Positions 1 through 37,100 of a DNA stretch of 40,354 bases are shown here, piece after piece (within the stretch, counting starts at the first letter, position 1; every line of letters starts with the position of its first letter). The stretch is from Thermoplasmata archaeon (GTDB taxonomy: Archaea > Thermoplasmatota > Thermoplasmata > Lutacidiplasmatales > UBA184). The stretch lies in NCBI GenBank assembly GCA_030037955.1, contig JASHPT010000021.1, forward strand, positions 1 to 40,354, given 5' to 3'. Below the pieces are notes generated by a model. It worked only from the letters and a program-made list of their open reading frames with translations, searched no databases and was not told where the DNA came from. A program made the translations under genes and the position numbers.

Positions 1-3000
1 GAGGTTCTCGAGGAACGGGCCGGTGCCGCCTTGGCCGGACAAGCCTACAACCACCCGCTCTCGGCCGAGTATCCTCCCCTGCTGAACCTCATGAGTCCCG
101 GCGGTCAGCTGCATCCTTCGTTAGAGGTCGGCGACAGCGGGACCGGCATCGTTCCGCTCACGCCGGCGCACGGAGCTTCTGACTCGCGGATCGCCGAAGC
201 CCTGGAGATTCCCGGGTGGCCGGTGGTCTCCGCCAACGGCCTGCTGGAGGCCCAGTCGTCCCACAAGTACGCCCGTCTCCCGATCGATACGGCGGAGGCG
301 TTCATTCTCCGGGACCTTACCGACAGCGCGCAGCTCTTCGCTCAACTCCGGGTCCGCCATGGCGTGCCCCACTGCGCCGATTGCGGGACCGGGCTGTTCT
401 GGCGTCCCGCCCGGGCCTGGCGCATCGAGCCAGACCGCATCGACGCCGAGACGCTGTACCTGTTCAAGCGGCTCCTTCCCGGAGAGCCGCTCCCGCTCGC
501 CACCGAGCTCGTGCCCTGGCCGGCGAGCGACGCGCAGACCACGCAGGACGCGGCCTACCCGGCGCTCCTGGAGTGTGGCAGTTGCTCTCGCCTGGCGCCG
601 GTCGGCAGCGGTCCCAAGTGCACATGTGGGGGCTTCCGGTCCGAGGTCCGGCGGCCGCTCCTCCCGGTCTTCGCCGAGGCCCTCTATCGCTGGGCCCGCC
701 TGACCCCCTTCCCGCAGGACCAGGGGGTCGGGCTCTTCCTGCCGGAGCAGCGCCGGGGACCGCTCCTCCTCACCCACCTCGTCGCTCAGTTCGCTGCATC
801 GGCGCGTCCGGCGGACACCCACCTCACCCTGCTCCCGACCGGCGCGGTGGAGGATCCAGCGACCCAGCTCGACCCGGCCGCTCCGGTCGACGCCCTCCGG
901 TCCGCGCTGGTGCGGATGGCCTCCCGACGGCGAGCGGCGTCGCCGTTTGTGGCCGTCGTCCACGAGGAGGGCCGTCGGCTCCGACGCTTCTGGAGGATCG
1001 CGGTCGCACTGTCCGACGCTCTCGTCAAGGAGGGGATGCCCCCCGGCGACCAGTCCATGGCCCGGATCCGCGACTCGCTCCCTGAGGAGGACCGAGCCTT
1101 CGTGTCGCGATTCGAACGGCTGCGCGCGGATGCCCTGGCCGGTCTCGCCGCCGGACGTCTCCCGGTCACCCTGGACCGGATTTCCCGATTTGCCGAACAG
1201 GAGCTGCGGGAGCGATACCTCCTGATCTCGCGCCGTCGCCTGGACGAGCCGGACCAGGGCACCGGACGGACCGCCGCATTCCGCGTCCTGCTCTACGTGG
1301 TCGAGGGCCTGGCGGAACTCTGGGCGCCGTTCGCGCCCTTCACGATGGAAGCGATCCACCGGGCGTTCCGGGACGACGCCCGGAGCCTCTACGAGTCTCC
1401 GATCGCGCCGGTTCGCCAGAGTCTCATCGACCCGGCGGCTGAGAAACTGCTGGACCGGATCACGCCGATCGCGCTCGCGGTGGAGAGGGCACGCCGTCGG
1501 CTCTCGCTGCCGCGAGCGACGCGGTGGGCCGGCCTCGTCGTCAACGCACGGGACGAAACCGTGGCCGGTGAGCTTCGAGAGCTGCTCCCGGTCCTGGCCC
1601 GGATCCTTCCGGCGGATGCCGTGGAGGTTGCTTCGCCGTCCCAACCGTGGGAAGGACGACAGATCCGCGTCGAGCCGAACATGGCGGAGCTGCAGAAGGT
1701 CTATCGCGCCTCCGCCGGCCGGATCGCGACCCTGCTCTCGCAGATGCCCGGCAAAAGGGTCCGGGAGGGGCTGCGGAACCAGACGCTCAACGTGGTCTTG
1801 GGCGGGAGCGCCGTCCAGCTGCTGCCCAGCATGGTCGCTCTCGTCGACGTCCTGCCGCCCGGGATCCTGATCGTTCCGTTCCCCCAGGGCGAGGTCTTCC
1901 TCCGGCTACCCGAGGGGACAAGCTCGGGCGTGCTCGACCTGATGCTCGGGCTCGGTCCCGACGCCTATCGGGTGCTACGGTCGGTGCGTCGTCGGCTGAC
2001 CCACGCGCCGGCCGAGGCAAATGTCACCGAGGTGTGGGTCGAGGCGCCGCCGGCCCTCGAAGAAGAGCTGCGCGGCCATGCGACCGCGATCGCGGCTTCG
2101 CTCCGAGTGGGACGGTTCGAGGCGGTCGCCGAGGGCAGCCGATTCATTCCGGGCGAGACCACCCGCGGACGCACGGCCGTCGGTACCCAGTGGAGGGTGT
2201 GGATTCCTGGTCTGCCGCGACCGACCTCCCGGCGGAAGCTTCGCGCCGCACGCCCGGCCGGCCGCCGAGCCCGACGCAGCCAGCGCTTCGAGCCGGAGTC
2301 GGAGACCGGCATCGACTACCTGAGCGACACGGTCCGCACCCGGGACGCGGCACTGCACGCCTCCCTGGAACAGCTCGACCAGGTGCCCGGATTGCAAGTG
2401 CTGGGGATCTCCAAGCTGTCGGCGGCCTGGGAGGCCGGCTACCACGATGTCGATACGCTCTCCCACGCGTCGTATGAGCAGCTCTCCGCGGTCCCGGGCT
2501 TCGGGCCCTATCTGGCCCGCGAGGTCGTCCGACACTTCGGAGGCGCGGTCCCTGCCCAGATTTGGGTGTGGCCACCGCCCCACGTGGAGACGTCCGAGCC
2601 GGAGGAGGCTCTTCCGCCCGAGCCCGGCCTTGCCGAGGCAGCCCTGGTGCCCGCTCTCCCCGAGGCTCCCGCGACCACCCTCGAGATGCCGGCAGCGCCG
2701 GCGGCCCCGGCTCCGGTACCGCGGGCGCCGCCGCCGGCCGCCGTTCCCCGTCCTCCGACCCTCCCGTCCATGCCGGCTCCCCGGCCTCCCGCGCCCCCGC
2801 CCGCCGTACGCCCCGAGACGGCTCCGTTGCCTCCGTGGCGACCGCCGGTGGCCCAGGAGGAGACCCCCGAAGCCCCCGCCGCACCGCGGGCGACGTACCA
2901 TCAGGGGATCGAGCTGCTCGTCGAGGATACGACCGACAGTGCCTGGGCGCGATTCCTCGAGGCGGTGAGCGATGGCCGTCGCGGCCTCTGCGTGACCCGG

Positions 3001-3345
3001 GAGTTCCCCGACCGTCTGCGCCGTCGCATCGGTTCACGGGATGTGACCGTGATCTGGCTGTCCAACGTCGGCCGTCAGAACTCGGTCAAGCCGAGCGATG
3101 TGACCGCGCTCGAAACGCTGTTCGTCAGCGCACTCACCGAGGGCCACGTCAGCGCGGTCCTCCTCGAGGGATTCGAGTACCTGGTCACGGTGAATACCCT
3201 GGCCCCGGTCCTCAAGCTCCTCCGAGAGCTGCACACGCGTGCCGAGGCCGCCGGGACGGCCGTCTGGGTTCCCGTCAATCCCCGGCTGCTGACGCCCGGT
3301 GAGGTTGACATGTTGAAGGGAGCCTTCCCGGTCGGGGCGTCCTGA
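1..3345 (+). CDS. Isoleucyl-tRNA synthetase-like protein fused to HhH and DUF835 domains (5' partial, degenerate catalytic core)
   Basis: The reading frame is open from the first base, so the N-terminus lies outside the window. An IleRS/ValRS-type editing domain shows the GTGIV...P.HG..D signature (nt 139-183). It keeps the Asp that is important for editing in IleRS, but Pro stands where many IleRS proteins have a His. Cys pairs follow (HCADCG near nt 370, CGSC near 570, CTCGG near 616). The anticodon-binding domain is recognisable (WAPFAPF near nt 1321, ARRRLSLP near 1490), as is an IleRS-like C-terminus (VEPNM near 1670). No ISRQRYWG, WFDSG or KMSKS motif is found between the editing and anticodon domains, where a working class I synthetase needs them. 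Further on are a helix-hairpin-helix region (about 2340-2560), a Pro/Ala-rich linker (about 2580-2890) and a DUF835 domain (about 2900-3330). Aminoacylation looks unlikely; RNA binding or editing in trans is an inference. Confidence 0.85.
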   Translation, partial: EVLEERAGAALAGQAYNHPLSAEYPPLLNLMSPGGQLHPSLEVGDSGTGIVPLTPAHGASDSRIAEALEIPGWPVVSANGLLEAQSSHKYARLPIDTAEAFILRDLTDSAQLFAQLRVRHGVPHCADCGTGLFWRPARAWRIEPDRIDAETLYLFKRLLPGEPLPLATELVPWPASDAQTTQDAAYPALLECGSCSRLAPVGSGPKCTCGGFRSEVRRPLLPVFAEALYRWARLTPFPQDQGVGLFLPEQRRGPLLLTHLVAQFAASARPADTHLTLLPTGAVEDPATQLDPAAPVDALRSALVRMASRRRAASPFVAVVHEEGRRLRRFWRIAVALSDALVKEGMPPGDQSMARIRDSLPEEDRAFVSRFERLRADALAGLAAGRLPVTLDRISRFAEQELRERYLLISRRRLDEPDQGTGRTAAFRVLLYVVEGLAELWAPFAPFTMEAIHRAFRDDARSLYESPIAPVRQSLIDPAAEKLLDRITPIALAVERARRRLSLPRATRWAGLVVNARDETVAGELRELLPVLARILPADAVEVASPSQPWEGRQIRVEPNMAELQKVYRASAGRIATLLSQMPGKRVREGLRNQTLNVVLGGSAVQLLPSMVALVDVLPPGILIVPFPQGEVFLRLPEGTSSGVLDLMLGLGPDAYRVLRSVRRRLTHAPAEANVTEVWVEAPPALEEELRGHATAIAASLRVGRFEAVAEGSRFIPGETTRGRTAVGTQWRVWIPGLPRPTSRRKLRAARPAGRRARRSQRFEPESETGIDYLSDTVRTRDAALHASLEQLDQVPGLQVLGISKLSAAWEAGYHDVDTLSHASYEQLSAVPGFGPYLAREVVRHFGGAVPAQIWVWPPPHVETSEPEEALPPEPGLAEAALVPALPEAPATTLEMPAAPAAPAPVPRAPPPAAVPRPPTLPSMPAPRPPAPPPAVRPETAPLPPWRPPVAQEETPEAPAAPRATYHQGIELLVEDTTDSAWARFLEAVSDGRRGLCVTREFPDRLRRRIGSRDVTVIWLSNVGRQNSVKPSDVTALETLFVSALTEGHVSAVLLEGFEYLVTVNTLAPVLKLLRELHTRAEAAGTAVWVPVNPRLLTPGEVDMLKGAFPVGAS

Positions 3346-22567: not shown

Positions 22568-23106
22568 GCCGACAGCAGTGCCCGCAGCCGCAGGACCGAG
22601 TTCCAGTTACGGCTCGTGGTCCGGGTGCCCAGGCACCGCTCGATGAGGGCCGGGGTGAGCTGCGATCGGCCCTGGCCGTCGGGATAAACCAGGTAGCCCA
22701 TGTCGCCGGCTCCGGCCACTCTTTCAGGTCCGCGGATGGCGGCGTCCAACAGTCGCCACCGGTCGCCGGGCACCGAGGTCTTCAACGCCGTCACGACCAG
22801 CCGGGCCGGATCCGTCCTTGCCTCGTGGGGAAAGGGGTTGTCGGCCACCAGGGCGTCCCACCGCTCCCGAGTACGAACGAAGGCGTCGGTCTGAAACCGC
22901 AGACGTCGCTGGAGCGCCGCCTCGAGCTCCTGTTCCATTCGTGTCAAAGACGCCCGCGGCGAGGCAAAGGCCGCGTCCCCCGACTGCAGGACCGTCGCTA
23001 CCTCCTCGAGCCCCAGCGATCTCAGGGCCGAGCGAAGGTCCTCCATCCTTAGCCGGCCCGTGCCGCGTACGTTGACCGCCCGGAGGAGCGCTACGTGGCT
23101 CCTCAT
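22564..23106 (-). CDS. DUF1697 family protein
   Basis: 180 residues from ATG. ALLRAVNVRGTGRLRMEDLR, LGLEEVATVLQSGDAAFASP and the C-terminal CLGTRTTSRNWNSVLRL match DUF1697, a family of small alpha/beta proteins of unknown function common in bacteria. The usual INVGG is VNVRG here. Its stop codon shares the palindrome CTAG (22564-22567) with the stop of the convergent HerA-like ATPase, so no intergenic space exists. It diverges from the KaiC-like cassette. A bacterial origin is possible, but composition gives no clear support. Confidence 0.9.
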   Translation of the reverse strand: MRSHVALLRAVNVRGTGRLRMEDLRSALRSLGLEEVATVLQSGDAAFASPRASLTRMEQELEAALQRRLRFQTDAFVRTRERWDALVADNPFPHEARTDPARLVVTALKTSVPGDRWRLLDAAIRGPERVAGAGDMGYLVYPDGQGRSQLTPALIERCLGTRTTSRNWNSVLRLRALLSA

Positions 23107-23187
23107 CGAGGTCCTCCCAGCGGCCCGGCGGACGAGGCGAACCGCAAAGGGAACAAGCATTTTAGGAGGGGGCCGGCTCTCGGCGCC

Positions 23188-23970
23188 GTGAGCGGCAGCC
23201 GTTCCGTGCCTACGCCGTCGGCCGAAGAGAGCCCGGAGAATCGATGCGTCACCGGCATCGAGGGTCTCGACAACATCCTCGGGGGAGGAGTGCCCCGCGG
23301 GAATATGGTGCTCATCGCGGGCGGCGTGGGCACCGGAAAAACGACGCTCTGCCTCGAGTACCTGGTCCGCGGGGCGGAGAAGAACGAGAAGGGGCTCTTC
23401 ATCTCGGTGACCGAGGCCTCGACCAAGCTGCTGCAGAATTTCGCTACCTTCGAGTTCTTCCGACCGGAGCTCGTCCAGCACGAGATGATCACGATCGTCG
23501 ACCTGCCCATCATCTACGACCGCCTTGGGTTGAATCGGGAGGAGCTCAAACCGGGCGAGGTGGACATCCTCGTCCGGACGATCCAGGACCTCGTCCGGGA
23601 GAGCGGGGCCCGACGGGTCGTGATCGATTCTCTGACGTCGGTGGGGTTCCGAGTGCGCAGCGAGGAGAAGGCCCGGGACTTCATCCTCAAGCTGGGCCAG
23701 GCCTTCTCGGAACTCGGGACGACCTCCCTGATGGTGGCCGAAGTAGGCGCCGTTCCCGGCGTGCACTCCTTGTACGGTGTCGAGGAGGCTATCGTCGACG
23801 GCGTCGTGCTCCTCTCGAACGTCCGGCGGCGCGGCGACATGCTACGGGTCCTGCAGATCATCAAGATGCGGGGGACCGTCCACTCGCGAGCCCAGTACGT
23901 GATCGAGCTCACGCCGATCGGAATGCTGCTGGCCCCGTTTCTGAAGGGCGGACGCCTGGAGACCGGCTGA
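23188..23970 (+). CDS. KaiC-like RecA-fold ATPase (intact P-loop)
   Basis: 260 residues if started at GTG 23188, which follows GGAGGGGG at 23165; an upstream frame extends to 23095 but is not protein-like. CVTGIEGLDNILGGGVPRGN is the KaiC-type opening. Walker A is GGVGTGKTTL (near residue 48), EAS follows in a KaiC-like position and Walker B is RVVIDSLTS (near 145). KaiC-like proteins in archaea are ATP-binding regulators, some linked to signalling or to archaellum-type assemblies. It is followed after 4 nt by two degenerate relatives, suggesting one complex or pathway. Serine phosphorylation sites of true clock KaiC are not evident. Confidence 0.9.
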   Translation: MSGSRSVPTPSAEESPENRCVTGIEGLDNILGGGVPRGNMVLIAGGVGTGKTTLCLEYLVRGAEKNEKGLFISVTEASTKLLQNFATFEFFRPELVQHEMITIVDLPIIYDRLGLNREELKPGEVDILVRTIQDLVRESGARRVVIDSLTSVGFRVRSEEKARDFILKLGQAFSELGTTSLMVAEVGAVPGVHSLYGVEEAIVDGVVLLSNVRRRGDMLRVLQIIKMRGTVHSRAQYVIELTPIGMLLAPFLKGGRLETG

Positions 23971-23974
23971 CCCG

Positions 23975-24559
23975 ATGACCCGTGATTCCGAGATCGCCGA
24001 CCGGCTCCGCTCGTACACGAGCGGCGGCACCGTGGCCCTGCGCCTGAGCTCGCAGGAGTACGCAGACAACTACCTGTCCGCCCTCGGGCTCACCGTCCGC
24101 GACCTGGGGGGCGAGTCGAACGCCCACACCATCTACGTGTCCGTCACGAACCCCGCCTCCTTGGTCTGGAGCCTGTTGCAAGCCCTCGACATCCCGTCGG
24201 GACGGCTCTCCTTCGTCGACGCCATCTCGCATCTCATGATGAGCTTCCAGAACGTGCTCCCGAACGCTTCCTACGTCGAGAGCCCGACCATGCTGGAGGG
24301 GATCATGCTCCGGATCGAGTACCTTCTGCGGAAGCACCCCAACCAGCGGAACATGGTCATCGTGGACTCCGTGAACTCGCTCGCCGTGCACAACAGTCCG
24401 GAGGTCCTCTCGGAGTTCTTCCACATTCTCGTGAACAACCTGAAGACGCGAGCGGTGCTGACCGTCCTGTTCACCACGTCGGACGCCGAAGGGTCCGACC
24501 TGGACCGGATCCTCTCGCTCGTCGTCGACGAGGCCTTTTCGCTCGGCGGAGGCACATGA
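23975..24559 (+). CDS. KaiC-like RecA-fold protein without a P-loop
   Basis: 194 residues from ATG, beginning 4 nt after the KaiC-like ATPase. The fold resembles the second half of a RecA/KaiC domain: NAHTIYVSVTNPASLVW, LEGIMLRIEYLLRKHP and a Walker B-like strand MVIVDSVNSLAVH (near residue 128), then LFTTSD. No Walker A is present, so ATP binding by this protein alone is unlikely. The ATGA overlap with the next gene shows tight coupling. It may be a regulatory partner that completes a hetero-oligomer; that is an inference. Confidence 0.8.
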   Translation: MTRDSEIADRLRSYTSGGTVALRLSSQEYADNYLSALGLTVRDLGGESNAHTIYVSVTNPASLVWSLLQALDIPSGRLSFVDAISHLMMSFQNVLPNASYVESPTMLEGIMLRIEYLLRKHPNQRNMVIVDSVNSLAVHNSPEVLSEFFHILVNNLKTRAVLTVLFTTSDAEGSDLDRILSLVVDEAFSLGGGT

Positions 24560-25308
24560 CGACCGGGGACGAGCCGTTGCTCGGCATCCCGGACATCGAT
24601 TCCTCGCTGACGCCGTATCTCCCCCCGGGCAGCCTCGTGGTCGTCGTGGGAACGCCGGGCTCGGGGACCCATCTGCTCGCGAAGCAGTTCGCGCAGGCCG
24701 GCGTCGGGTCGACCCCGGTGCTCTACTACACCACGGCCGAGCGTACCATCGACGCCCAGGACGCCTTCCGCTCGTTCCACTGGGACCCGGAGGCCATCCG
24801 ATTTGGGAACCTCTCGGACGACTACTACCGGCGAGTGCTCGAGCCCGAGCTCGAGGTCTCGCGGCTCCGCGAACGGGGCCTGCGCTTGGACGACCTCCGG
24901 AAGGCCCGGCGCCCCGAGGTGCCGCTCGCCCCCTACAGCCTCGTCGGTCGTTTCCTGAACGAACTCGCGAACCTGGATTCTCCGTTTCGGCTCGTGCTCG
25001 ACTCACTCGACTTCCTGCTCGAGCTCCTCGAGGTCTCCGAGGTCGTCAACCTGGTCCGGCAGATCCGGTCGCGGACGCAGCTACTGGGAGGCAAGGCGAT
25101 GGTCACGGTCCAGCAGGGATCCCTCGACAGCCGCTCCAGCGCGATGCTTGAGGATGTCGCTGACCTCGGCATCACGCTGCGCGCCGACCCGAACGGCTCG
25201 ACCTTCGACCATACGCTCGAGGTCCGGAAGCTGAGGAACCATCCGGAGCGCACCCAGATCCAGCGGCTGTCGATCGACGAGCACGGCTTCCACGTGCTCG
25301 CCTCGTAG
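24556..25308 (+). CDS. KaiC-like RecA-fold protein with altered P-loop
   Basis: 250 residues from ATG, overlapping the previous gene by ATGA. The KaiC-like start (LLGIPDIDSSLTPYLPPGS) and strand VVVVGTPGSGTHLLAKQF are present. The P-loop reads GTPGSGTH where GxxGxGKT/S is expected, so the catalytic Lys is replaced by Thr. FRLVLDSLDFLLELL (near residue 140) is the Walker B strand. It has a normal domain length but probably binds nucleotide weakly or not at all. With the two genes before it, it forms a three-member cassette of one active and two degenerate RecA-fold proteins. Confidence 0.85.
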   Translation: MTTGDEPLLGIPDIDSSLTPYLPPGSLVVVVGTPGSGTHLLAKQFAQAGVGSTPVLYYTTAERTIDAQDAFRSFHWDPEAIRFGNLSDDYYRRVLEPELEVSRLRERGLRLDDLRKARRPEVPLAPYSLVGRFLNELANLDSPFRLVLDSLDFLLELLEVSEVVNLVRQIRSRTQLLGGKAMVTVQQGSLDSRSSAMLEDVADLGITLRADPNGSTFDHTLEVRKLRNHPERTQIQRLSIDEHGFHVLAS

Positions 25309-29584: not shown

Positions 29585-30741
29585 CAGAGTGGCGGGGCGG
29601 GGAGCTGGGTCACCTGCTGCGGCGGTCGGAAGAAGCGGGCCCCTTCCCCTCGGATCGCTTGGATGTACTGGGCATCCCCCTGGACCTCGACTCGGCTGTC
29701 GACCTCGAGAACCTCTGCGTAGACGTTGCGAGCCCGTGCCCGAGACTCCAGTCGCAGCGTGCCGGCCCACACGTCTTCGACCTCGCCCCGCTCACCGACA
29801 CGGACTTCCCGCGCCACGATCGGGCCCCGGACGCTGCTGCGGTCCCCGACGCGGAGCAGGTCCGCCTTCACGCCGGACTTGGTGCGGATCTCGTCACCCA
29901 CCTCTACGCGGTCTGTCACGACGACGCGCTCGGCCGACAGTCGGCCTCCCACTTCGAGCCGGAGGCCCAGCACAGCTCCATCGACCTCGGCCACACCGCC
30001 GACCTCGATGTCTGTCCCCTCCACCGAGCCCGCGGCGAGGAGGCCCCCGACCTCGATCCGCCCGGACTTAAGCTTCCCTTTGACCCGGATTCTGCCCCCG
30101 ACTTCCATCGTTCGGGTCGCCGTGAGGTCCCCGTCGCAATCGATCAGCCCTCCGACCTCGACCGCCTCGCCTTGCACCGCGGCCCGGAGCCTGGCCATGC
30201 CACCGATCTCGAGCGAGCCGAAGCTGAGCGGCGCCGTAGTCTCGAACTTCCCACCGATCTCGATCGCCTGGCGGACCGTCCCTCCCCCGATGATTACCCG
30301 TCCGCCCACGCTGAGCCGTGTGAGGTCGACCGCACCGCGCAGTTCCGCGGAGCCCCCGACCTCGAGGTCCTGGCCCTTCGTGGAACCGCCGACCTCGAGG
30401 ATGCCATCGATGTCAACCTCCGGACAGTTGAGGCCCCCGCGGATCGAGATTCCGCGATCTCCGGACAGTGCCTGAGCGGTGAGATCTCCTTCGATCTCCA
30501 CCCGAGCGTGCCGCAGGGAAATCCGGTGGTCCACGGAGACGGATCCCGTCACCCGGAAGGCGCCGTCCCGTACCCGGAGCTCTTGGCAGTGCAGCGCGCC
30601 CTCGACGGAGCCCGCACCCCAGACTGAAAGCTGTCCCGCGATCTCGACCGCCGTGGCGCCGGGTCCGGGGCGCAGAACGCCCCCGGGCGGCAGGTCGAAG
30701 TTTCCGTCGATGCGTCCGGTCGGCGGCGTTGAAGTGACCAT
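29584..30741 (-). CDS. Bactofilin-like beta-helix protein with about 12 repeats of 17 residues
   Basis: 385 residues from ATG. Most of the protein (about residues 110-330) consists of repeats with the core [ED][VI]GG or [RS]VGG/D, recurring almost exactly every 17 residues (one 16, one 18), with hydrophobic residues between. This is the pattern of a right-handed beta-helix as in bactofilins and polymer-forming cytoskeletal proteins. No signal peptide or membrane span is apparent, so an intracellular filament or scaffold is the simplest reading. Short non-repeat ends flank the array. It lies in the tail of the L18Ae-pfdA-ftsY-trmJ operon, upstream of a coupled winged-helix gene. Function is inferred only from repeat form. 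Confidence 0.8.
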   Translation of the reverse strand: MVTSTPPTGRIDGNFDLPPGGVLRPGPGATAVEIAGQLSVWGAGSVEGALHCQELRVRDGAFRVTGSVSVDHRISLRHARVEIEGDLTAQALSGDRGISIRGGLNCPEVDIDGILEVGGSTKGQDLEVGGSAELRGAVDLTRLSVGGRVIIGGGTVRQAIEIGGKFETTAPLSFGSLEIGGMARLRAAVQGEAVEVGGLIDCDGDLTATRTMEVGGRIRVKGKLKSGRIEVGGLLAAGSVEGTDIEVGGVAEVDGAVLGLRLEVGGRLSAERVVVTDRVEVGDEIRTKSGVKADLLRVGDRSSVRGPIVAREVRVGERGEVEDVWAGTLRLESRARARNVYAEVLEVDSRVEVQGDAQYIQAIRGEGARFFRPPQQVTQLPAPPL

Positions 30742-35288: not shown

Positions 35289-37100
35289 GTGGGCAGCGAC
35301 GAGAGCAGTTCGTCGGCTGCACTCTGGGACCCGTGGCGCCCGGTTCGGGACCACATCATACTCGAGTTGTCGCGACGATTGGGCACCCATGGGTTCGCCG
35401 AGTCTGTCGAGACGCTCGACCGTCAGCTCGAGGACGCACCGGCCGGCGTGGCGGACTTCGGATACGCCGTCCACCGGGCTGCTAAGTCAACCGGGATTCC
35501 GGCCGATCGCTTGGCGGTCGAGATCGCGACGGGGTTTCCGCTGAGCGGTGGCCTCGCAGGCGTCACGTCCGAGGGCGCCTATGTGAACTTCCACGCCGAC
35601 ACTCCTCGCCTGGTTCAGGCGACCCTCGAGCTAGTGTTCGCCCGTGGCGCGGAGTACGGCCGGGGGCCCCCCCGTGCCGAGAAGGCGTGCGTCGAGCACA
35701 CGAGTGCGAATCCCACGGGCCCCTTCCACGTCGGACGAGTACGCAACGGGATCATCGGCGACACCCTGGCACGAACGCTGAGAGCTGCCGGTCTACCGGT
35801 GACTACTGAGTACTACGTCGACGACATGGGCCGGCAGTCGGCCATGATCACCTGGATCTGGTCGAAGCCCGTCGATCAGTGGCCGGAGTCGGTCCGCGAG
35901 GGAGCACGACCTCCCGCCGGGGCCTCCCCGACGACCGAGAAGGCGGACCGGTGGTACGGCCGGCCCTATCCGTTCGTCAGCGAACTGCTCAAGAGGGACC
36001 CGACCGCGGCGCAGTCGGTCGCAGACCTGGTACGTCAGATCGAGTCCGGAAATGCCCCGGCACGGCACCGGGAGCTCGCCCAAGCGGTCCTCGACGCGAT
36101 GCTCGCGTCGCTCCGGCGCATCGGCATCCAGTTCGATTCGTTCGTCTGGGAGTCCAGCTTGGTCTCCGACGGCTCGGTCGCCCGGGTCATCGAACGGTTC
36201 CGGAAGGCGCCGGACGCTGTCGTTGAAGAGAACGGGGCTCTCGTGCTGGACGCCGCGAAGTACGGCCTTCCGAAAGAGACGGCCAAGATTGTCGTCACCC
36301 GGGGGGATGGCACGTCGCTCTACCCGACCCGCGACGTGGCATACCATCTCGGAAAGTTCGCACGGTTTGCGCGAGCGGTGGATGTCTTGGGCCAGGATCA
36401 CCAGCTCCACGCGCGCACGCTCACGGCCATGCTCTCGGAGCTCGGAGAGGCACGGGCCCCGGAGTTCGTGATCTACCAGGACATTACCGTCCCCGAGGGC
36501 GGCCGAATGTCGACGCGGAAGGGCCGAGCCGTCTATCTAGACGACCTGCTGGACGAGGCCGTCGAGCGCGCACAAGCGGAGGTCCTGCAACGACGGGAGG
36601 ATCTTCCCTCCGAGCAGGTGGCGGAGATCGCGGAGCGAGTGGGGGCCGGCGCCGTCCGGTATCACATCCTGCGGGTAGCGCCGGACAAACCGGTCAGGTT
36701 CCGGTGGGAAGAGGCGCTGTCGTTCGAGGGACGCAGCGGACCCTTCGTTCAGTATGCCTACGCCCGGGCCTCCAGCGTCCTGCGCAAGGCCGGCGCCGAG
36801 GGGGCCCCGGCGGGTTTCGACGCGAAGTCGCTCTCCGCCCCGGAAGAGACCGCTCTGGTCCGGGTGCTGGCGCGACTACCCGGAACGGTGCAGTACGTCG
36901 CCCGGACCGCTCACGTGCATACGCTTGCGACGTACGCTCACGAGGCGGCCGAGTCCTTCAACCGGTTCTATCAGAATATCCCGGTCCTACGGGCCGACGA
37001 ACCGATGCGGACGGGGCGACTCGCGCTGGTGGCGGCGGCTCGCCAGACGATCGGCAACACGTTGGACTATCTGGGACTCGCGCGGCTCGAGCGGATGTAG
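35289..37100 (+). CDS. argS: Arginyl-tRNA synthetase
   Basis: 603 residues from GTG, 50 nt from the divergent ThiI-like gene. An N-terminal Arg-tRNA recognition domain is followed by the HIGH-type signature GPFHVGRVRNG (near residue 143), then YYVDDMGRQ, DVLGQDHQLHARTL and the KMSK-equivalent GRMSTRKGR (near 405). The anticodon-binding domain is at the C-terminus (ALVAAARQTIGNTLDYLGL). It charges tRNA-Arg and looks fully intact, in contrast to the degenerate IleRS-like protein at the start of the window. The 3' end overlaps queC by 34 nt. Confidence 0.97.
   Translation: MGSDESSSSAALWDPWRPVRDHIILELSRRLGTHGFAESVETLDRQLEDAPAGVADFGYAVHRAAKSTGIPADRLAVEIATGFPLSGGLAGVTSEGAYVNFHADTPRLVQATLELVFARGAEYGRGPPRAEKACVEHTSANPTGPFHVGRVRNGIIGDTLARTLRAAGLPVTTEYYVDDMGRQSAMITWIWSKPVDQWPESVREGARPPAGASPTTEKADRWYGRPYPFVSELLKRDPTAAQSVADLVRQIESGNAPARHRELAQAVLDAMLASLRRIGIQFDSFVWESSLVSDGSVARVIERFRKAPDAVVEENGALVLDAAKYGLPKETAKIVVTRGDGTSLYPTRDVAYHLGKFARFARAVDVLGQDHQLHARTLTAMLSELGEARAPEFVIYQDITVPEGGRMSTRKGRAVYLDDLLDEAVERAQAEVLQRREDLPSEQVAEIAERVGAGAVRYHILRVAPDKPVRFRWEEALSFEGRSGPFVQYAYARASSVLRKAGAEGAPAGFDAKSLSAPEETALVRVLARLPGTVQYVARTAHVHTLATYAHEAAESFNRFYQNIPVLRADEPMRTGRLALVAAARQTIGNTLDYLGLARLERM

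Follow-up and report, generated by a model that had tools for sequence, protein, structure and literature searches.

An isoleucyl-tRNA synthetase relative without catalytic motifs, carrying an inherited HhH-DUF835 tail, is conserved in Thermoplasmata

In this study, the first open frame of a 40,354-nucleotide stretch of Thermoplasmata archaeon DNA (the window; contig JASHPT010000021.1 of assembly GCA_030037955.1) was investigated, and it was observed to encode the C-terminal 1114 amino acids of a protein of about 1356 amino acids that is related to isoleucyl-tRNA synthetase (IleRS), lacks the catalytic motifs of that enzyme, and ends in helix-hairpin-helix (HhH) and DUF835 domains. By its substitution pattern, this dead fused IleRS is no pseudogene but a gene kept under purifying selection, and a complete second IleRS is encoded in the same genome. 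The case for the evolutionary history presented here is strong, and the function is one that we infer.

The window's genome (G000; 1.88 Mb, 168 contigs, completeness about 90%) carries the gene on two contigs. The part at window positions 1-3345, forward strand, is a single open frame truncated at its 5' end by the contig start, and the N-terminal 242 amino acids were located on contig C35 (L004:7853-8578). The 3'-terminal 751 nucleotides of C35 overlap window positions 1-751 with eight mismatches, mostly synonymous, which look like strain-level variation, and the joined open reading frame is 1356 amino acids long with a GTG start codon at C35:7853. In sister species, the corresponding frame of 1375-1414 amino acids is whole and unbroken on single contigs. 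An assembly fault or chimera is ruled out by the contig overlap and these orthologs; a preliminary description of the window had already thought a fault unlikely, as argS in the same window keeps its motifs, and both the tRNA-synt_1d and DALR_1 domains of argS were indeed found at 35289-37100.

The domain order of the full protein is a shortened N-terminal Rossmann half, the CP1 editing-type domain, a decayed C-terminal Rossmann half, the anticodon-binding domain, a DUF5915-like region, HhH, a Pro-rich linker and DUF835, and all parts within the window lie on the forward strand. CP1 comprises 233 residues (153-385 of the full protein), and its C-terminal part, delimited by alignment to intact IleRS and by PDB profile matching, occupies positions 1-429; the family profile matches PDB IleRS structures best over this editing domain (E 3e-31). 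It includes the codon equivalent to Asp328 of T. thermophilus IleRS (181-183) and the Cys pair CADC (373-384), the second half of a CP1-type zinc site. The decayed Rossmann half (430-1080, by alignment) contains a Cys knuckle, CGSC..CxC, at 574-627 (574-585 and 619-627), which forms a second zinc-type site; the Cys residues of both sites are invariant, and a further motif, CPRC, is encoded on C35. Anticodon_1 (PF08264; 1081-1545) scores 43.5 bits against a cut-off of 25.1, and the region at 1546-2364 aligns with the IleRS C-terminal domain of intact fused IleRS, in which DUF5915 is over its cut-off. HhH models reach 17-22 bits at 2365-2574, with PF00633 and PF14520 just under their cut-offs (21.6 against 24 and 21.7 against 27), and HHH_5 is clearly over its cut-off in relatives (65-130 bits). 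A Pro/Ala-rich linker follows at 2575-2889, and DUF835 (PF05763) at 2950-3321 scores 68.2 bits against a gathering cut-off of 33.1.

The motifs HIGH, GWDxHG, WFDSG and KMSKS were not found in the window protein or in the aligned family of 31 rows, a few of which are fragments. HIGH was likewise not found in the N-terminus encoded on C35 or in the family members covering that region, and ISR..WG is missing from the decayed C-terminal Rossmann half of the window protein. This half has about 217 amino acids compared with about 265 in the intact enzyme, and across the family the two Rossmann halves are shortened to 152-159 (vs 192) and 212-219 (vs 265) amino acids. The window protein reaches 75 bits with the ileS equivalog TIGR00392, below the curated cut-off of 621 bits. 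With AlphaFold, the IleRS body gave a predicted local distance difference test (pLDDT) score of 50 and a predicted template modelling score of 0.33 over five sequences, with an unusable N-terminal half. As in archaeal IleRS (TIGR00392, with a DUF5915 C-terminus), CP1, anticodon domain and DUF5915 follow one another in the same order and the zinc Cys residues are kept; the dead protein differs from it in lacking the catalytic motifs and in possessing the C-terminal HhH and DUF835, which are class-wide in intact copies. The preliminary description, which had recognised an IleRS-like protein stripped of catalytic motifs, its editing domain, Cys pairs, anticodon domain and IleRS C-terminus, and two extra domains beyond the IleRS C-terminus, is borne out as an observation.

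A second, complete ileS, which that description had suggested looking for, was found on contig C28. It encodes 990 amino acids with the motifs GRPHIGHA, WYDSG and KMSKSKGN, and has its own complete editing motifs by alignment. Its best PDB matches were T. thermophilus 1ile (777 bits) and 8c8u (753 bits), with about 300 bits for 1ffy/8c9e; these four structures were each placed in IleRS1 or IleRS2 as we take them to belong. From these comparisons, we read the C28 stand-alone enzyme as IleRS2-type. The IleRS1 and IleRS2 types have been described (PMC4861432), IleRS2 being the eukaryote-like one to which the C28 enzyme would belong, and a Lokiarchaeon has been noted with ileS2 beside an archaeal IleRS (PMC4861432); the present pair differs in that the archaeal-type partner is without an active site.

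To follow the fused form across the class, 100 relatives were searched with three queries, namely the dead protein, the stand-alone IleRS (A) and an intact archaeal-type fused IleRS (B, from G098), with decayed B in the window's form labelled P. The sample of the class Thermoplasmata comprised 22 families (f1-f22), f1 being the window's own. Two IleRS lineages, A and B, were recovered, and the IleRS-HhH-DUF835 architecture recurs in other genomes. B begins with an IleRS of archaeal type, after which come DUF5915, HhH (frequently accompanied by zinc ribbons) and DUF835 (Pfam), and its intact copies display HIGH-type (HxGT), ISRQRYWG, W(F/V)DS and MSKS-type motifs, with MHKS in f11. B is the only IleRS, with motifs intact, in f4, f7, f8, f10, f11, f12, f14, f16, f17, f21 and f22, some of which yielded fragments only, and its motifs are intact in f5 and f20 as well. 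The tail is missing from three f8 members. In the phylum outside Thermoplasmata, IleRS frames are about 1050 amino acids long and therefore have no room for an HhH-DUF835 tail. Because intact sole IleRS of the class carry it, the tail is an inherited trait of the class's IleRS and no late addition to a dead enzyme; foreign addition of HhH and DUF835 is ruled out on the same ground, and the earlier statement that the two are not known IleRS parts does not hold for this class.

Comparatively, B is decayed in eight families, namely f1 (genera g1, g5 and g6; form P), f2, f3, f6, f9, f13, f15 and f18. In f2 HIGH is retained and KMSKS is lost, and the f15 copy is a remnant of 1017 amino acids (L177:1387-4440, forward strand, in G075, a complete genome on a single contig of 1,486,778 bases) with Anticodon_1, DUF5915, HhH, a zinc ribbon and DUF835 and no recognisable tRNA-synt_1. 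Intact A is present in all eight families with decayed B and in none of the 13 with intact B; such a split among 21 families would arise by chance once in 203,490 if the families were independent, and they are related. On a tree of EF-2 and RpoB, the decayed label requires four changes, three of them forced by well-supported branches; B decay arose several times. An independent-pairs test was not significant, with too few supported pairs on the tree. The placement of decayed copies within the B clade by tree was not trusted, since long branches meet there, and the shared tail is the better evidence of descent. A reverse case was seen in f5 (L143, L148 and L154; G065, G078 and G088), where B is intact and the IleRS2-type A lacks KMSKS, reading KISRASEN, KIKRGTEN and KMRNVHKN at the expected place. 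In f20, a divergent other IleRS copy exists besides intact B. L153 (G086:C27) encodes a divergent IleRS-like protein of 982 amino acids, of a different type from the rest of the A group, in which NNPMGVHHAWG replaces HIGH and AMHRSKGN replaces KMSKS.

P is present, whole or partial, in 39 of the 48 genomes of g1, g5 and g6. The ratio of nonsynonymous to synonymous substitution rates (dN/dS) within g1 is 0.06-0.22 in every folded domain, about 0.35 in the weakly constrained linker and 0.06-0.09 in DUF835, where it is lowest in most comparisons, all ratios being rough as synonymous distances exceed 1. The gene has no active site yet is under strong selection, and therefore the old IleRS must have another job. 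CP1 is the best-conserved IleRS-derived part in f1: it is exactly 233 amino acids long in the members checked, and its mean pairwise identity is 0.517 in the dead form vs 0.521 in intact B, while identity in the other IleRS-derived domains falls from 0.46-0.59 in intact B to 0.33-0.38. Its residues are given here in what we take to be T. thermophilus IleRS numbering, with residue roles assumed likewise. In the family alignment, D328 is retained in 31/31 and W232 in 30/30 members; the Thr-rich site is changed, with T228 in 18/30, Asp for T229 in 29/30 and mostly Ala or Ser for T230, and N237 and H319 are lost. The CP1 of the family hence does not carry the active-deacylase signature (T228-T230, N237, H319, D328), and is retained for something though the known hydrolytic site is lost. 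Elsewhere, the best-kept parts are DUF5915 and DUF835 in f9, DUF5915 in f6, and DUF835 in f13 and f18.

DUF835 is an inactivated KaiC-like domain (iKaiC) described on archaeal response regulators (PMC5847659). The AlphaFold model of the window's domain has a pLDDT of 86 and matches FlaH, KaiC and RadA in Foldseek, and the domain is accordingly modelled as an inactivated KaiC/RecA fold. It resembles iKaiC (PF05763; PMC5847659) in exceeding the Pfam cut-off and in its KaiC/FlaH/RadA-like fold, and differs in its host, which is a response regulator there and an aminoacyl-tRNA synthetase here. One other DUF835 match, a partial one, occurs in G000.

The locus in f1 links P to a second gene. P is transcribed away from the aIF5A gene and a gene for a coiled-coil protein of about 1490 amino acids; the copy at L004:2723-7189 (minus strand) encodes 1489 amino acids, lies next to aIF5A, is conserved in f1 and has no Pfam match. 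Eight g5 genomes without P all lack the coiled-coil protein as well (8/8) and keep the intervening aIF5A gene, which suggests that the joint loss took two deletions. A ninth genome without P, G053, has a locus that appears broken. The link is a one-way one, since the coiled-coil gene is also retained in g2, g3, g4 and g7, none of which has P. Coiled-coil proteins of 1586-1983 amino acids were also seen in f16 and f20 directly upstream of intact B (L063:9926-15874, minus; L070:2-5053, plus; L167:9241-14001, minus); they end in a copy of about 250 amino acids of the IleRS C-terminal (DUF5915) domain, with E values down to 6e-38, and the one in G086 contains CARDB domains. No convincing match was found between the f1 neighbour and these f16/f20 proteins. 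The co-loss, together with the C-terminal domain copies in f16 and f20, gives a hint that the C-terminal parts of IleRS and coiled-coil proteins act together.

Taken together, we consider that P may work without catalysis, as an adaptor or sensor that binds either tRNA or some small ligand resembling an amino acid and is linked to a KaiC-like module, a reading to which we give a probability of about one half. P descends from the archaeal-type IleRS of the class itself, in which HhH and DUF835 were in place before the decay; an imported IleRS2-type enzyme then took over tRNA-Ile charging, and the old fused enzyme, relieved of aminoacylation, lost its catalytic site. A second role may reside in the RNA-binding part (anticodon domain, DUF5915 and HhH), the CP1 pocket and the DUF835 module, such that P binds tRNA or ligand and DUF835 relays a signal to partners of the KaiC or coiled-coil type. 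This account builds on the descent, motif loss, replacement enzyme, purifying selection, KaiC-like fold, and coiled-coil linkage and co-loss described above. A wider and more tentative possibility is that the housekeeping IleRS itself is bifunctional, its HhH and iKaiC coupling isoleucine or tRNA status to KaiC-type signalling or coiled-coil cell structure, with selection keeping the second function, several times, after imported IleRS2 takes charging. Several observations weigh against the adaptor or sensor account. P is missing from 9 of the 48 genomes and from four sister genera of f1 altogether, and is therefore not essential; A was not found in the assemblies of two genomes bearing P (G019 and G054), probably through assembly gaps; the eight g5 genomes without P form one or two clades and so represent one or two co-loss events; the conserved parts vary by lineage, with CP1 in f1 and DUF5915/DUF835 in f9; and, of four f6 members, three gave no DUF835 match, one of these three being a contig-end fragment. 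Furthermore, the tRNA or ligand binding of P and its signalling partner are both matters that we infer.

Other explanations differ in which part of the protein they regard as working. HhH and DUF835, with DUF5915, might serve alone in signalling, DNA- or RNA-linked or cytoskeletal work, the IleRS body being a scaffold without tRNA or ligand role. The low dN/dS of DUF835, its retention in most decayed lineages, the pattern in f9, the signalling type of the iKaiC domain (PMC5847659) and the IleRS C-terminal domain copies on coiled-coil proteins adjoining B are all in line with this, but in f1 the conservation of CP1 equals that in active enzymes, with D328 and W232 still in place, the anticodon domain also has a low dN/dS, and f6 members without detected DUF835 are still conserved, which leaves it rather unlikely. 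Conversely, CP1 might act as a trans-editing deacylase, clearing misacylated tRNA by hydrolysis on behalf of the stand-alone IleRS, as the preliminary description had envisaged. The Thr-rich motif, N237 and H319 are central to known IleRS editing in T. thermophilus and E. coli. Although constraint among the IleRS-derived parts is strongest in CP1, with invariant D328 and W232 and the best PDB match of the family profile to editing domains, the change of T229 to Asp and T230 to Ala/Ser, the loss of N237 and H319, and the complete editing motifs of the stand-alone enzyme make the canonical mechanism improbable. An RNA-linked sensor, named in the same description, is possible and close to the adaptor or sensor reading.

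IleRS is a monomeric enzyme, which speaks against a regulatory partnership between P and the stand-alone IleRS; A is also kept without the dead form in genera g2, g3, g4 and g7 of f1 and in f19. Such a partnership, comparable to that of HisZ with HisG or of SLIMP with SerRS, would suit the accompaniment of B decay by intact A and has precedents among aminoacyl-tRNA synthetase-like proteins (PMC9437257), and we nevertheless hold it to be very doubtful. That P is a cryptic synthetase with replaced motifs is scarcely credible: the anticodon domain and zinc sites are kept, but four motifs are missing family-wide, neither Rossmann half has its full length and the genome encodes a complete ileS. Least credible of all is a decaying pseudogene or assembly chimera, which the lost catalytic motifs and the N-terminus on a separate contig might recall, but which is contradicted by dN/dS of 0.06-0.22, by an open frame that runs uninterrupted in about 30 genomes, on one contig in many of them, and by the 751-nucleotide overlap.

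Dead or near-dead synthetase copies with new roles are of a known kind, such as HisZ, SLIMP and LeuRS-I (PMC9437257), and the dead fused IleRS likewise combines lost motifs, purifying selection and a second complete enzyme. LeuRS-I of Sulfolobaceae and LeuRS2 of Halobacteria are similarly archaeal class I copies kept after loss or near loss of aminoacylation (PMC9437257). In LeuRS-I the editing domain is disrupted and leucyl-adenylate is still formed (PMC9437257), unlike the dead fused IleRS, which has lost its synthetic site, has kept the CP1 fold best and bears a KaiC-like tail. HisZ and SLIMP resemble it in a regulatory role retained after loss of aminoacylation (PMC9437257), and differ in their class II origin and known partners. 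In the literature searched, which misses most subscription papers, we found no report of an IleRS that is fused class-wide to HhH and iKaiC and is retained although its charging motifs were lost repeatedly, nor any paper that treats IleRS together with KaiC or describes a dead IleRS. Our data document, for an entire archaeal class, a synthetase fused to a KaiC-type module, with the two roles repeatedly separated. Every lineage that passed charging to another enzyme serves as a natural experiment in which the second role is exposed, and the functions of DUF835 and the IleRS C-terminal domain therefore become testable.

Elsewhere in the window, three adjacent KaiC-family genes were observed at 23095-25308 (plus strand), of which the first and third are over the KaiC cut-off and the middle one, of 194 amino acids, covers profile positions 51-171 only and is below it; together they may form a KaiC-type system, encoded in the window that also holds the iKaiC tail. 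A bactofilin-like protein (PF04519, 55 bits) is encoded at 29587-30741 on the minus strand.

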